This document shows positions 2,907 through 50,268 of a stretch of DNA of 64,000 nt, piece by piece; position 1 is the stretch's first letter, and every line of letters begins with the position of its first letter. The DNA is from Candidatus Zixiibacteriota bacterium (lineage in GTDB: Bacteria > Zixibacteria > MSB-5A5 > UBA10806 > 4484-95). Position numbers and translations under genes: made by a program. The notes under the pieces are model-generated. The model made no database searches. It was not told where the DNA came from and saw only the letters and a list, made by a program, of their open reading frames with translations. Location: positions 62,001 to 126,000 of the forward strand of contig JAAEQD010000106.1 of assembly GCA_024231855.1 (NCBI GenBank), written 5' to 3'.

Positions 2907-5900
2907 ATGAATATGCCGCCAGAAGGAACATTATACTACATTTTAATTGCCACAATTGTTGCTGCTATTGTTGGTAAGTATAGCGACATACTCTTTAAAA
3001 AGATAATTTATTGGCCTATTGCAAAGGTTTGGAACTTATTTTACAAACTGATCGCTCCAAGTAATTTCCTATCTCTATCATTTTATAATTACAAACGTCA
3101 TATTTTGCGTTCAAAAATCGCACGGATTGAAACTGTCGTAGGTCCTGTATTAAAAATACCTCTTGAACAAGCTTATGCACCTATAAAATTTATTTCACGC
3201 GAGGTAGAACAAGGAATAGATTTATTCGAGCATACTTCTAAATGTAACCGATTTATTGTATTGGGCGGACCAGGCACCGGGAAAACTACACAAATGAAAT
3301 GCCTTATAATAAATATGTTAGAAAAAAAAACTAGAACTGAACTTGATAAAGTTATCCCAGTTTTTATAGTCCTACGTAAACTTGCTTCAAAAAAACATAC
3401 CGTTAAAGAAGCAATTATTGCTGCATTTGAAAAATACAATTTCCCCAAAGCGCATAAATATGTTGAAACTTGCCTGACGCGAGGGAAAATGCTTATTATT
3501 TTAGATGGGTTGGATGAAGTAGGAGTTAACAAAGCCTTTGTGAATAAGGAGATACGAGAGTTTTGCGAAAATGATGACTTACAGCAGGAAAAAAACCATG
3601 TTATAGTCACATGTAGAGAACATAGTTATCAAAACGATGAATTAAGAGATGTATTGCCCAATGTTGTCAAAGTTGAACCTTTTGCGAATCATCACATTAG
3701 AATATTTCTTAAGGGATGGCCATTACATCATAAAAGAAATGCTATTCAATTATATAGCAAAATCCAAGATGATCCCGTGATACGAGACATCTGTAGAAAT
3801 CCCCTTATGTTAACTATATTAACTGGGCTTTATATGGACGTTCAAAATTTCGAAATTCCAACTAATAGAACTAACTTCTACGAAAATGTCGTTGATGAGC
3901 TTATGATCAAAAGGCCTGAACGCAGAGAAATAAAGCAAATATACCACCCCAAAGATAAAATTAAAATTCTAGAACGTATTAGCCTAGAACGTCTTGAGAC
4001 TGTTCGGGAAAATGAAGACCCAGAAGAACTATCAACAAGCGCAATAAGGAAATATGCATATGAATTATGGGGAGATGAATACAATATTCGCAAACTTATT
4101 GAAGAGTTAGTCGATTTTAACGGGATAATTAAAATGTCTGGGAATGAAGCTTATACTTGTTCACACAGAACTATACAAGAATATCTTGCGGCCCGTGAAG
4201 CTCATCGAACAAAAAATACAAAACAATTCTTAGAACAATTTAGTGAGCACGATTATTTAATTGAGGTAGTCTATTTCTATTGTGGATTGATTAGAAATAT
4301 ACCTCAGATTAATGAAATTGTCAGTTCATTCACTGATCTCAAAAAATGGAAAGAAGCTGGGAGATGTATATTATTTACTTCCGAATCTCCCAATGAATCC
4401 GAGATAAGGTTAGTAAGCGAAAAACTACTAAATTATTTATCAAATCAACAAGATGTTGAAATTTGCCTGGAATTATTGTCATCTCTTACGCAAAAACGCG
4501 ATGCTGTATTTGAGTCAACACGAGAAATTTTTAATCATGCTATAGATCTATTAGCAAAAAGAAAAGGGGATAGCGATGCATCAGCCCTTGAAACTGTTCT
4601 ATCCGCTTCTCCAGAAATTGCAATGAAAGTTATACCGGGATTATTACAGCACGATTCAGGAAGATGGAAAAGAGCCGCTGTTAAACTTCTACATGATATC
4701 GGTACCGATGATGCGCTTGATAAATTAATTCAATTATTAGAATCCAGTGATAGCGACATCAAGTATGAAGCGAGTTTGTTATTAGCAGATTTAATTAAAA
4801 CCAGAAAGAAAGAGCTGTTAAAAAGAAAAGACCTTCTGCCCAATCGACAAGATTTAAATTTCTGGCCCCTTGAGGATCACTTTCCCAGTCAAATAGCTCT
4901 ACCTATGGCTGAAGCGTTAGTCGGTAGAGATCATTCCTCAAACTTCGCAATAAACTCGGCGGCTAAAGCTATAGAAATCAACACCATTAAGGATAAAAAT
5001 GATAAAAATTATCTACGCGCATGGTATAGAATACCTTTTTATTTGAAAGCTAAAAAATGCTTAAGTTATTTGGGAGATTTTATCTTAGCTATAGGTTTGT
5101 TTTCGGTAACAATTTTCAATTTTACTATTATTGCCATTACTATGCTTTCGTTTTTTAACCAAGATTTTATAATGGTGGATATTAATTCCTTCCAGATACA
5201 TTCTTTTAGCTATGAGAGTATTATTAATTTAAATCTTGAGGCTAAGAACCTGGCAACAATCGTAGAAGAACATTATCCATCTAATGCCTCCGGGATATCA
5301 CGTATACTTCCATGGAACTGGGAAGTAGAACCAATCCTTCCAGATAGTATAAATGAAGCATATAAAATTCTTTTAGATCTAAAAATGACATTTGGAAATC
5401 TGGTTAGAAATTACAAAATAACACAATTTCATCCTCTTTTAGAATTAATACCAAGTAACAGGCTTGATGAATTCTATGGGCTCTACGACAAAGCCTTAAA
5501 AGTTATACCAGACCCCGAGATATCAGCCATTGCTTTTCATTCTATCCCCAGTATTATTTTAATAGAGATTATATTTATACTTGTCATAATGCTTAATATT
5601 CCCGTTATTATTATGTATAAGAAGTATTTTAATATCAAGATTTCCCCACGGTTTCTATTATCAAACCAGGGTGTGCTTTTTCTTGCTCTAATAATTGCGC
5701 TTGGCGCATTCTGTGGTGTTAATCTTCAGACCTCATTTTTATTATCACTTTTATTAATTATTCCGTATTCTTTATATATGATTTTAACATTATTTCCCTT
5801 TTCAAACCATCTTGTCGTTCAACTAATTAGAGCATTCCATTCCGATAAGGATTATAGCAAACAGTTTTTGATAAAACAATTGTCCTATATTCAGATTTTC

Positions 5901-5975
5901 TTTTTGTTTCCTGTTTTCTACCAAAATTTAATATTAAAGCGCTATCTCACTATAAAAGATCGACGTTCAAAATGA
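2907..5975 (+). CDS. Membrane-anchored NACHT-family STAND NTPase with HEAT-like repeats
   Basis: A 1022-residue protein. A hydrophobic segment at 8-27 is followed by a NACHT NTPase: Walker A GGPGTGKT (120-127), Walker B LIILDGLDEVG (196-206), sensor-type HVIVTCRE (231-238), NPLMLTILTG (298-307), and the winged-helix end SHRTIQEYLAAREA (419-432). Residues about 530-690 contain HEAT-like helical pairs. The C-terminal third has about five hydrophobic segments (725-750 and several after 865), so the protein is probably held in the membrane at both ends. NACHT proteins of this kind act in bacterial anti-phage immunity and signal sensing; here the ligand and killing mechanism are inferred only as far as the membrane segments hint at membrane disruption. 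Base composition is much more AT-rich than the neighbours, consistent with transfer. It has no partner gene and is bounded by a terminator. Confidence 0.85.
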   Translation: MNMPPEGTLYYILIATIVAAIVGKYSDILFKKIIYWPIAKVWNLFYKLIAPSNFLSLSFYNYKRHILRSKIARIETVVGPVLKIPLEQAYAPIKFISREVEQGIDLFEHTSKCNRFIVLGGPGTGKTTQMKCLIINMLEKKTRTELDKVIPVFIVLRKLASKKHTVKEAIIAAFEKYNFPKAHKYVETCLTRGKMLIILDGLDEVGVNKAFVNKEIREFCENDDLQQEKNHVIVTCREHSYQNDELRDVLPNVVKVEPFANHHIRIFLKGWPLHHKRNAIQLYSKIQDDPVIRDICRNPLMLTILTGLYMDVQNFEIPTNRTNFYENVVDELMIKRPERREIKQIYHPKDKIKILERISLERLETVRENEDPEELSTSAIRKYAYELWGDEYNIRKLIEELVDFNGIIKMSGNEAYTCSHRTIQEYLAAREAHRTKNTKQFLEQFSEHDYLIEVVYFYCGLIRNIPQINEIVSSFTDLKKWKEAGRCILFTSESPNESEIRLVSEKLLNYLSNQQDVEICLELLSSLTQKRDAVFESTREIFNHAIDLLAKRKGDSDASALETVLSASPEIAMKVIPGLLQHDSGRWKRAAVKLLHDIGTDDALDKLIQLLESSDSDIKYEASLLLADLIKTRKKELLKRKDLLPNRQDLNFWPLEDHFPSQIALPMAEALVGRDHSSNFAINSAAKAIEINTIKDKNDKNYLRAWYRIPFYLKAKKCLSYLGDFILAIGLFSVTIFNFTIIAITMLSFFNQDFIMVDINSFQIHSFSYESIINLNLEAKNLATIVEEHYPSNASGISRILPWNWEVEPILPDSINEAYKILLDLKMTFGNLVRNYKITQFHPLLELIPSNRLDEFYGLYDKALKVIPDPEISAIAFHSIPSIILIEIIFILVIMLNIPVIIMYKKYFNIKISPRFLLSNQGVLFLALIIALGAFCGVNLQTSFLLSLLLIIPYSLYMILTLFPFSNHLVVQLIRAFHSDKDYSKQFLIKQLSYIQIFFLFPVFYQNLILKRYLTIKDRRSK

Positions 5976-23694: not shown

Positions 23695-24123
23695 CCAAGC
23701 CTAGAAATATATCGAAAATCGGCGAAAATTGCAAGTTTTATTTTAATTATTTTACTTTATAATCGGTTATTTTTCAATGTGTTACGATTATGGGGCGGGC
23801 GGCCCAATATAAATATCTCCGCAGTACCTCTAAATTGCAGGTGTGTGCTCATTTGGGCAGTGGTTTTTAGGGTATCAGATGAACCTAAAAAACTTGACTG
23901 CACATGGTATAAAGAGTATTTTAACGTAGATGCCAATTTGTATAAAGGCATCTTACGCGCTGCAGCAAGAGATTTGTAACATACTCGAGACGCGGGATAA
24001 AAAGGTTAGATTTTAAATGAAGCTCAATAGTAGATGAAATTTAGCAAAGTTATTGTAATGGTTTATTCTTAAATATGAAATAATTAAAAATAATATGCGA
24101 TCAGTGATAATAGGAGCATCCAT
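23695..24123. other. AT-rich intergenic stretch between dciA and the TIR-like gene
   Basis: 429 bases with no complete gene. Around 23866-23979 the plus strand reads an open, protein-like piece (DEPKKLDCTWYKEYFNV and more) that ends in a stop and lacks a start or ribosome site, so it may be a gene remnant. The rest shows no repeat or clear promoter. Confidence 0.5.
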
Positions 24124-25689
24124 TTGAATAATAGAAGCGTCGAGATATTTATAGGTTCATCGTCAGAGGCTGGTAAAATTGATAAAGAGATACGTTCTCT
24201 AATTTCGCGGCTAGGTGCAAGTGTAGTTAATTGGAGAAATATATCTAATTCGGGTGATTTTCTGCTAGATAATCTACTCGATTTAACATCACAAGTTGAC
24301 GGTGCGATTTTAATTGCATCTGCTGATGATACACTTAAAAAAAGAGGCGAAACTTCATCCATCCCCAGAGATAACATCATCTTGGAAATAGGTTTATTTC
24401 TATCACAATTAGGCCGTCGTCGTACGTGTATAATCCTAGTGCCAAATAAGGACAAAGTTTATCCATCACTCCCTTCAGATTTGGATGGATTAACTTGCTT
24501 AAAATACAGGCCAGATTCTTTTAGTGAACTTGAACATAATCTTGAGAAACTGATAAAAGATATTCAACTGCATCAATCTAAATATTCATTAATTAGGGGA
24601 TTTATAAAAAGAGTTCGCCCAGTTATAATGAATATACCAAAGCATTGGCTCAATGAAATACAGAATTACGTTATAAATCCAATCTTTGAAGCTGTAGATT
24701 CGGTCGAGGAAGGTGAATTATTGCTTACAACAAGTGAGTATTATAATTGCTTATATCGGGAAATGGAGCAATCAAATGAAGATTATGAAATATTAGCAGT
24801 TTCAACTATGGTTTCAGAGATTTGGACTGATGATATTGAGCAAAAAATATATCTACGTAAAAATATTGAAGCTTCAAAAAGAAATGTGGCGATTAAAAGG
24901 TTATATATAAAAAATAAAGAAGAATGGCCTTCGCTAAATTTAATACTATCCTACCAAATTAAGGCGGGTATTGATGTAAAAATTACAACACGTGAACACT
25001 TATCAAATGTTATAAATTTAGAGGATATGGCAATTTTTATAGACAAAAATAGTGATTATGTGCGGGTTTATGTAATTCAATATGACTTATTTAATCCTAA
25101 AAGAATTAAAAAGGCGCTATTGATTACGGACCCAAAAAAGCAAAATAAACTAATTGAATCATTTCATATTGCGTGGCCAAGGATTTTAGATTACTCCCCT
25201 AAATTGCTTGCCATCAATCTTTCAAAGGCAAATCTATTAGATCAAAAAGCCCCCGGAAATATGATGCAAACATACCTGCTTGATCACCTCGTTGTTTCAT
25301 GTGAAGAAGCTGCACAAAGTAAAGGAATTCCGATCAAAAACGAGCTTAAAAGTATAATCCTGCAAACTTCTAACGGTTTCATTTGCGTGCATATCACAGG
25401 AGATAAATCAATATCATTGAAAAAGGCTAAGCAATTATTGGGGGTTGAGGAAGCTTTCATCGCGCCTCCAGGACTATTGAAAACGATTAATCTATCTCCC
25501 GGCACTATTAGTGCCGTTTTGGAACCTACATGGAGTATGAAACAGATAATATTAAAGGATATATTAAAATTGAGGTTTATATCTACAAACAATGGCACAT
25601 TAACTGGATATTATAAATTTGACCCAAGAATATTACAATCTGCGCCCGAGTTTAATTTGGTCTCAACCGATGAAATTTGTGAAGAATAA
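24124..25689 (+). CDS. TIR-like NADase-type protein fused to a YbaK-like tRNA-editing domain
   Basis: 521 residues from a TTG start with GGAG seven bases upstream. Residues 4-130 match the TIR-like family PF10137 (as in CBASS/Cap12 effectors): VEIFIGSSSEAG, the loop VDGAILIASADD, and RDNIILEIGLFLSQLGRRRT with the candidate catalytic Glu88. These domains cut NAD+. Residues about 170-375 are an uncharacterised middle domain (ILAVSTMVSEIW, RNVAIKRLYIKN) that resembles ligand-binding folds of PLD/TrmB type, but only faintly. Residues about 383-518 read as a YbaK/ProX aminoacyl-tRNA deacylase domain: VVSCEEAAQSKGIPIKNELKSIIL with the conserved Lys409, HITGDKSISLKKAKQLLG, and SPGTISAVLEP in place of the usual GxxxP loop. 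The gene is AT-rich and alone, which suggests transfer. A tRNA-triggered NAD-depleting defence role is inference. Confidence 0.8.
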   Translation: MNNRSVEIFIGSSSEAGKIDKEIRSLISRLGASVVNWRNISNSGDFLLDNLLDLTSQVDGAILIASADDTLKKRGETSSIPRDNIILEIGLFLSQLGRRRTCIILVPNKDKVYPSLPSDLDGLTCLKYRPDSFSELEHNLEKLIKDIQLHQSKYSLIRGFIKRVRPVIMNIPKHWLNEIQNYVINPIFEAVDSVEEGELLLTTSEYYNCLYREMEQSNEDYEILAVSTMVSEIWTDDIEQKIYLRKNIEASKRNVAIKRLYIKNKEEWPSLNLILSYQIKAGIDVKITTREHLSNVINLEDMAIFIDKNSDYVRVYVIQYDLFNPKRIKKALLITDPKKQNKLIESFHIAWPRILDYSPKLLAINLSKANLLDQKAPGNMMQTYLLDHLVVSCEEAAQSKGIPIKNELKSIILQTSNGFICVHITGDKSISLKKAKQLLGVEEAFIAPPGLLKTINLSPGTISAVLEPTWSMKQIILKDILKLRFISTNNGTLTGYYKFDPRILQSAPEFNLVSTDEICEE

Positions 25690-49296: not shown

Positions 49297-50268
49297 ATGG
49301 AGCAATCAACCGAAGGTATGGCAAACCAAATCGAATTTAAAAACAGAAAAGGATTCCTCATTTTCTTTGGAGTAGTGGAGATATTTTTAGGATTTATTTT
49401 CCTATTATTCGCTATCATGGCGGCTATCGGGACTTCATATATGAACACCAATACGGAAATGAATGGCACACCTTTTTATACAACTCAAATTGATATTTCG
49501 CTTTTGGTGTATTTCTTCATAGCAATATTGATCGTAACTTTGGGAATCGGGAATATAAAAGTAAGAAGGTGGGCAAAAGATTTTACATTAATAGTTTCAT
49601 GGTATGGAATGATATTGGGTACGATATCTTATATCTTTATGTTTGTTGTATTATCATATACTTTATCTGATCTCCCATCTGAAAGTAAATCAATAGCTCA
49701 AGTTATAATGTTTATATTTGGATGCTTCTTTGTTGTCGTTCCATTAGTATTTATATTATTTTTTCAAAGTAAAAACGTCAAATATACGGTAGATTCGATT
49801 GACACTAAAATAGGTTGGACTGATAAAGCTCCACTCACTGTTATTGCATTATATTTATTAACTTTACTTGGTGGCCTCGCTCCACTTATGAGTGCCAGCT
49901 ATGGATGGGCGATTATATTTTTTGGTACAGTCCTACATGGGATTCCTGGCGCTATGTTCATATTGCTGAATTCCGGTTTATTTATTCTCTTTGGTTACTA
50001 TTTATATAAATTGGATATTAGAGGATGGTGGGGTTTGGTTTTATTGAATATAACATGGCTTATCAATAGCATAATTACAGTTAGCAATGTATCAATATTA
50101 GAATTGTATGAAAAAATGAATTTGCCGCCAGAAAGTTTACATCAAATCGAAAACATGCCTTTTTTAAACTCGAAAATCTTTCTGATATACAGTTTTGTGT
50201 TGTTCTCTTTTCTGATGGGATATATGTTTCTTATAAAAAAACATTTCAGCCCTAAAACTGTTTCCTAG
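49297..50268 (+). CDS. AT-rich polytopic membrane protein, unknown function
   Basis: 323 residues with about eight membrane helices (roughly 20-45, 70-88, 98-128, 138-165, 182-205, 208-232, 235-262, 290-315). No family or catalytic motif is recognised. GGAGG five bases upstream fixes the ATG. The gene is more AT-rich than its neighbours and lies between two diverged direct repeats, which suggests arrival as a unit or a duplication event. Confidence 0.7.
   Translation: MEQSTEGMANQIEFKNRKGFLIFFGVVEIFLGFIFLLFAIMAAIGTSYMNTNTEMNGTPFYTTQIDISLLVYFFIAILIVTLGIGNIKVRRWAKDFTLIVSWYGMILGTISYIFMFVVLSYTLSDLPSESKSIAQVIMFIFGCFFVVVPLVFILFFQSKNVKYTVDSIDTKIGWTDKAPLTVIALYLLTLLGGLAPLMSASYGWAIIFFGTVLHGIPGAMFILLNSGLFILFGYYLYKLDIRGWWGLVLLNITWLINSIITVSNVSILELYEKMNLPPESLHQIENMPFLNSKIFLIYSFVLFSFLMGYMFLIKKHFSPKTVS

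Follow-up and report, generated by a model that had tools for sequence, protein, structure and literature searches.

A predicted TIR NADase joined to a YbaK/INS-like domain in a single gene of a Candidatus Zixiibacteriota genome

The gene and its surroundings

The window (the whole stretch of 64,000 nucleotides that was analysed) carries a gene for a protein of 521 residues, in which an N-terminal TIR domain is followed by a middle region and a C-terminal domain of the YbaK/INS family (Table 1). The reading frame runs for 521 open codons from a TTG start, with in-frame stops just upstream, and is a real, intact gene.

Table 1. Features of the TIR-YbaK gene, in positions of the window
Feature	Position	Strand	Basis
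Gene for TIR, middle region and YbaK/INS-like domain, 521 aa	24124..25689	+	ORF and profile searches
AGGAG ribosome-binding-like site, 7 nt ahead of TTG start	24112..24116	+	sequence
TIR domain, residues 8-128, CAP12/Pycsar type, PF10137	24145..24507	+	Pfam, PADLOC, PDB, alignments, AF2 model
Predicted long helices, residues 134-194, joining TIR to remainder	24523..24705	+	AF2 model
Middle region, residues ~195-385	24706..25278	+	no family or fold match
YbaK/INS (tRNA_edit, PF04073), residues 391-505	25294..25638	+	profile to 476, remainder by alignment

The gene is flanked by dciA and gyrB on the opposite strand and by a gene for a secreted endonuclease/phosphatase, which starts 155 bp downstream. 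None of these neighbours is a CD-NTase or nucleotide cyclase, and neither a partner gene nor a defence gene directly adjoins the TIR-YbaK gene. Rfam families, tRNA genes and repeats were also sought nearby, with nothing convincing found. Three same-family genomes also have gyrB and dciA as neighbours, at 81-82% and 68-76% identity respectively, but a different gene comes next, and the TIR-YbaK gene is absent beside gyrB-dciA in all three; its presence is lineage-specific.

The composition of the gene is foreign to its surroundings. Its GC3 is 0.27, as against 0.54-0.63 in the neighbours (gyrB, dciA, downstream gene 0.61-0.63), and the value is 0.24 in the TIR segment, 0.25 in the middle and 0.32 in the YbaK segment. 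Since all three segments share the low GC3, the parts seem to have travelled together, from elsewhere. Composition thus points to an acquired accessory gene, not to an assembly join. The source assembly is a draft of one genome with an estimated contamination of 8.5%, and the host that the gene serves therefore cannot be proven; yet the flanking gyrB is the one that closely resembles those of same-family genomes.

About 18 kb from the TIR-YbaK gene lies a NACHT gene (window 2907-5975, + strand, 1022 aa) with HEAT repeats and a hydrophobic C-terminus. It is the nearest defence candidate, has the same GC3 of 0.27, and is probably a second AT-rich immune-type gene that was acquired. Another AT-rich outlier is a gene for a multi-pass membrane protein (window 49297-50268, + strand), with a GC content of 0.32 compared to 45% for the window.

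TIR domain, middle region and YbaK/INS-like tail

An earlier note on this DNA had assigned residues 4-130 to PF10137 with Glu88 in place. Pfam bears this out, with a match to residues 8-128 at E=4.2e-24 and about 85.3 bits (curated cut-off 24.7 bits), and E88 falls in its pocket position. The same part matched the PADLOC TIR effector profile at 1.2e-33 and, in the PDB, PycTIR (8jsj, 1.2e-17) and SfSTING (7un8, 2.1e-17), and an AF2 model of the domain matched TIR-STING 9lmq at 5.6e-9. When aligned to 7un8, residues S13, R82, N84, E88 and D119 correspond to S10, R78, N80, E84 and D110 of SfSTING, the NAD-pocket residues described for that protein (PMC9402430). R82, N84, E88 and D119 are invariant in TIR alignments of 10 and 27 rows. 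As judged from these residues, the domain is an apparently intact, predicted NAD+ hydrolase.

The NCBIfam Cap12 models cover only residues 7-151, at 62-72 bits against a cut-off of 450, and they revealed no STING domain at the C-terminus. A cyclic-nucleotide-binding domain N-terminal to the TIR is also absent, as the TIR begins at residue 7-8 in both profile and PDB matches, and DUF4062 gave no Pfam match at E<=1.

TIR domains of the PF10137 type are joined to varied partner regions in prophages and plasmids, including TPR-like, winged-helix-like and PycTIR-type regions. Proteins of about 480-520 aa with this TIR and TPR-like repeats are widespread, with examples from prophages and from a plasmid of Leptospira (L022:2956-4428, L054, L063, L068-L070, L074, L075). 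Eight IMG/VR proteins (L051, L053, L055, L057, L058, L062, L066, L067) combine a prophage-type PF10137 TIR with a winged-helix-like C-terminal region, and end in an acidic tail resembling the tip of SSB (SDDIPF, DDDIPF, SDKPPF). Such a tail could let the protein bind the partners of SSB, or imitate SSB itself.

Residues 155-385 had no match of note in Pfam, PHROGs, PADLOC or the PDB. The PLD/TrmB-like fold suggested earlier for the middle region thus found no support in these four collections, which does not disprove it. AF2 modelling of the whole protein, run without homologues, gave a good TIR, linking helices with a pLDDT of about 70-88 up to residue 190, and a low-scoring remainder; the middle modelled alone in the same way reached a pLDDT of 35 and was uninformative. 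Genome searches with the middle region yielded no relatives even at E<=0.5, beyond weak chance-like matches. The ten best of these look like proteins with no relation to it, among them an ABC ATPase and a glutamyl-tRNA synthetase, and were rejected.

At the C-terminus, PF04073 matched residues 391-466 of the whole protein with E=7.3e-9 and 36 bits. With the C-terminus alone as query the match extended to residue 476 with E=1.2e-9, the score being 36-39 bits over both runs (Pfam cut-off 25.5 bits). Profile support stops at about residue 476, and residues from there to about 505 are assigned to YbaK by multiple alignment only. The YbaK and ProRS proteins of the same genome score 89 and 95 bits. 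The earlier note was right about the family of the C-terminal domain; its statement that residues 383-518 follow the YbaK pattern closely goes too far.

The INS lysine, K409, is present and is invariant in the YbaK alignment, and the loop glycine is also kept. The GXXXP loop reads GTISA at residues 460-464, so that its proline is lost; lysine and loop are both as the earlier note had read them. Lysine and GXXXP are features common to characterised INS editors (PMC11286415), and the lysine positions the terminal adenosine (PMC12021450). Loss of the proline disfavours ordinary deacylation and retention of the lysine favours a pocket of the A76/CCA type, although neither residue decides the matter. 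To go by these positions, the module most likely binds rather than edits, either through a pocket for the aminoacyl/CCA end or through a surface that contacts a protein. This agrees with the earlier suggestion that GTISA suits binding rather than catalysis.

Relatives of the tail and of the whole layout

The top PF04073 matches that were listed for 252 genomes lie mainly in frames of about 155-262 aa (freestanding) or about 500-675 aa (ProRS-sized), with some intermediate frames of 330-435 aa. The closest relative of the tail that we found is a YbaK-like protein from an Aliarcobacter cryaerophilus plasmid (L016:5965-6390; 28-30% identity, E=4e-7), with an alignment score of 141 compared to a mean of 29.3 and standard deviation of 4.7 for shuffled sequences. 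The two share TNNG and ELK motifs, but the plasmid protein is freestanding, has no TIR and keeps GXXXP, whereas the tail is fused to a TIR and carries GTISA. The related plasmid YbaK P0003 has a complete GXXXP (GRINP). In a phylogenetic tree the tail and the Aliarcobacter protein group with freestanding YbaK-type proteins, apart from the INS domains of ProRS (98/99); their pairing with each other (94/89) links two long branches and is uncertain. On the Aliarcobacter plasmid (NZ_CP032824.1, L016:5965-7373) the YbaK-like gene overlaps by 4 nt a gene for an ATP-grasp protein resembling D-Ala-D-Ala ligase. This ATP-grasp partner was not found in viral contigs, which also yielded no YbaK relatives for a wider alignment.

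The three-part layout itself was not found in sets of 58, 133 and 387 genomes (overlapping sets of relatives and of the phylum), in plasmids and phages searched by tblastn, or in viral contigs, and genome contigs searched with the gene's own 8-mers gave no further copy. A TIR-motif scan of 84,980 GTDB species, each represented by a single genome, recovered 591 stretches, none with the middle region or YbaK; it used one motif and a query in which the middle and YbaK carried only short stubs of TIR, and relatives with another motif would escape it. Nor was a combination of TIR and YbaK found in the open-access literature that was searched, where the layout is apparently undescribed. The earlier note had called the layout undescribed as far as its author knew, and had proposed a search for homologues sharing it. 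Its statement has held across more than 380 genomes, plasmids, phages, viral contigs, the 591 TIR-motif loci and the literature.

Interpretation and comparison with known systems

The reading we prefer, with a probability of roughly 55%, is a one-gene immune protein of the abortive-infection type, in which a TIR NADase is governed by an infection sensor in the C-terminal half. The N-terminal TIR would be an NAD+ hydrolase that is kept silent while monomeric or in a low oligomeric state, and the C-terminal half, consisting of the middle and the YbaK/INS-like module, would recognise a feature that arises or is altered in the course of infection. Binding would then lead to TIR-TIR packing and complete the active site, the pocket of one TIR receiving D119 from the other, and NAD+ would collapse. 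D110 plays this part in SfSTING, where it is donated to the NAD pocket by the dimer mate, and that protein is switched on by packing that the ligand drives (PMC9402430).

NADase activity, autoinhibition, oligomerisation, a role in phage defence and C-terminal sensing are all inferred; the reading draws on the many partners of this TIR type, on its solved relatives being immune NADases and on the activation of SfSTING by a ligand. The complete NAD pocket, the signs of an accessory gene, in GC3 and in absence beside gyrB-dciA in same-family genomes, the lost GXXXP proline and the example of Swarozyc, a TIR-like NADase of one gene that direct binding switches on (PMC13174449), argue for the same reading. 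An effector with an exchangeable sensor is the usual plan for PF10137-type TIRs, given the variety of regions to which they are joined. Against an immune protein stand the lack of a homologue with this layout, and hence of any conservation showing that the fusion works, the lack of an adjoining defence gene, the NACHT candidate being 18 kb off, and the lack of a family for the middle region. Some TIRs, moreover, signal or serve metabolism rather than kill.

Two more specific proposals are special cases of this immune reading, so that the confidences given to them overlap with it and do not sum to one. It is possible, though we hold it doubtful, that the middle and the YbaK-like fold bind a phage structural protein or another protein, the YbaK fold serving as a scaffold. 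The gene stands as a one-gene unit, the binding of phage portal by Swarozyc is a precedent (PMC13174449), and a middle region with no recognisable relatives would suit a recognition surface in an arms race; a plain scaffold, however, would not need the INS lysine and glycine that are kept. The other proposal, which we consider unlikely, is that the YbaK-like domain takes hold of tRNA at its 3' aminoacyl-CCA end, and that the TIR is released or triggered when charged tRNA is lost or changed, whether by phage or host tRNA nucleases or because charging stalls. It draws on membership of PF04073, on K409 with its role at the terminal adenosine, and on the change from proline to alanine, which suits a binding-only pocket. 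tRNA is also a known battleground of phage infection. What speaks for it remains domain identity, with no partner gene, homologue or modelled pocket, and the stretch past residue 476, which would form the remainder of the pocket, matches poorly. Since neither a homologue nor a genetic partner was found and residues 155-521 have no structure, the evidence gives tRNA no preference over a different ligand, for instance a phage protein, and a Swarozyc-like protein trigger would fit as well. Of the interpretation in the earlier note, the domain calls stood, and the reading that fits best is still an effector that depletes NAD and senses through its C-terminus; the step to reading tRNA rests on the family of the domain.

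More improbable still is an effector with two enzymes, in which the YbaK domain continues to hydrolyse aminoacyl-tRNA, so that NAD would be drained and tRNA uncharged by one protein. For it speak the retention of K409 and of the glycine in the loop, and the full motif of P0003, but the loop proline, which belongs to the motif common to characterised INS editors, is lost in the protein itself. An assembly artefact or a dead fusion of unrelated genes is very improbable. The layout is known from a single copy in the genomes searched, and that genome is a draft; yet the frame is open over its full length, GC3 is uniformly low in all three segments against 0.5-0.6 in the flanks, the catalytic columns are intact and the start has a good ribosome-binding site.

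TIR NADases are among the best-known suicide effectors of bacteria, and the systems that use them differ in what they sense. The main interest of the TIR-YbaK gene is its possible tie to tRNA. Fusion of a TIR to a fold that edits aminoacyl-tRNA would extend the known sensors by a further class. Should that fold now monitor the charging of tRNA or the integrity of its 3' end and so activate the NADase, which we consider unlikely, there would be a simple and direct link from phage or host attack on tRNA to NAD depletion.

The gene would be a variation on the plan of a TIR effector with a sensor, and that plan is already known. PycTIR of Pycsar and Cap12/TIR-STING of CBASS have TIRs of the same PF10137 subfamily with the same NAD-pocket residues, and are the closest solved relatives (about 1e-17); they are immune NADases whose TIR is fused to a sensor of cyclic nucleotides, of the cNMP-binding or STING kind, with a cyclase encoded alongside. 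In the 521-residue protein, by contrast, the sensor half would be the middle with the YbaK-like module, and no cyclase is adjacent. Swarozyc, a one-gene DUF4062 TIR-like NADase triggered by direct binding of the phage portal (PMC13174449), is alike in being a TIR-like NADase of one gene, presumably with its own sensor, but its TIR belongs to DUF4062, which our protein does not match. With the YbaK, ProXp and INS aminoacyl-tRNA deacylases the tail has PF04073, the lysine and the glycine in common, and it differs from a true YbaK in its much weaker match to the profile, its loss of the GXXXP proline and its fusion to a TIR.
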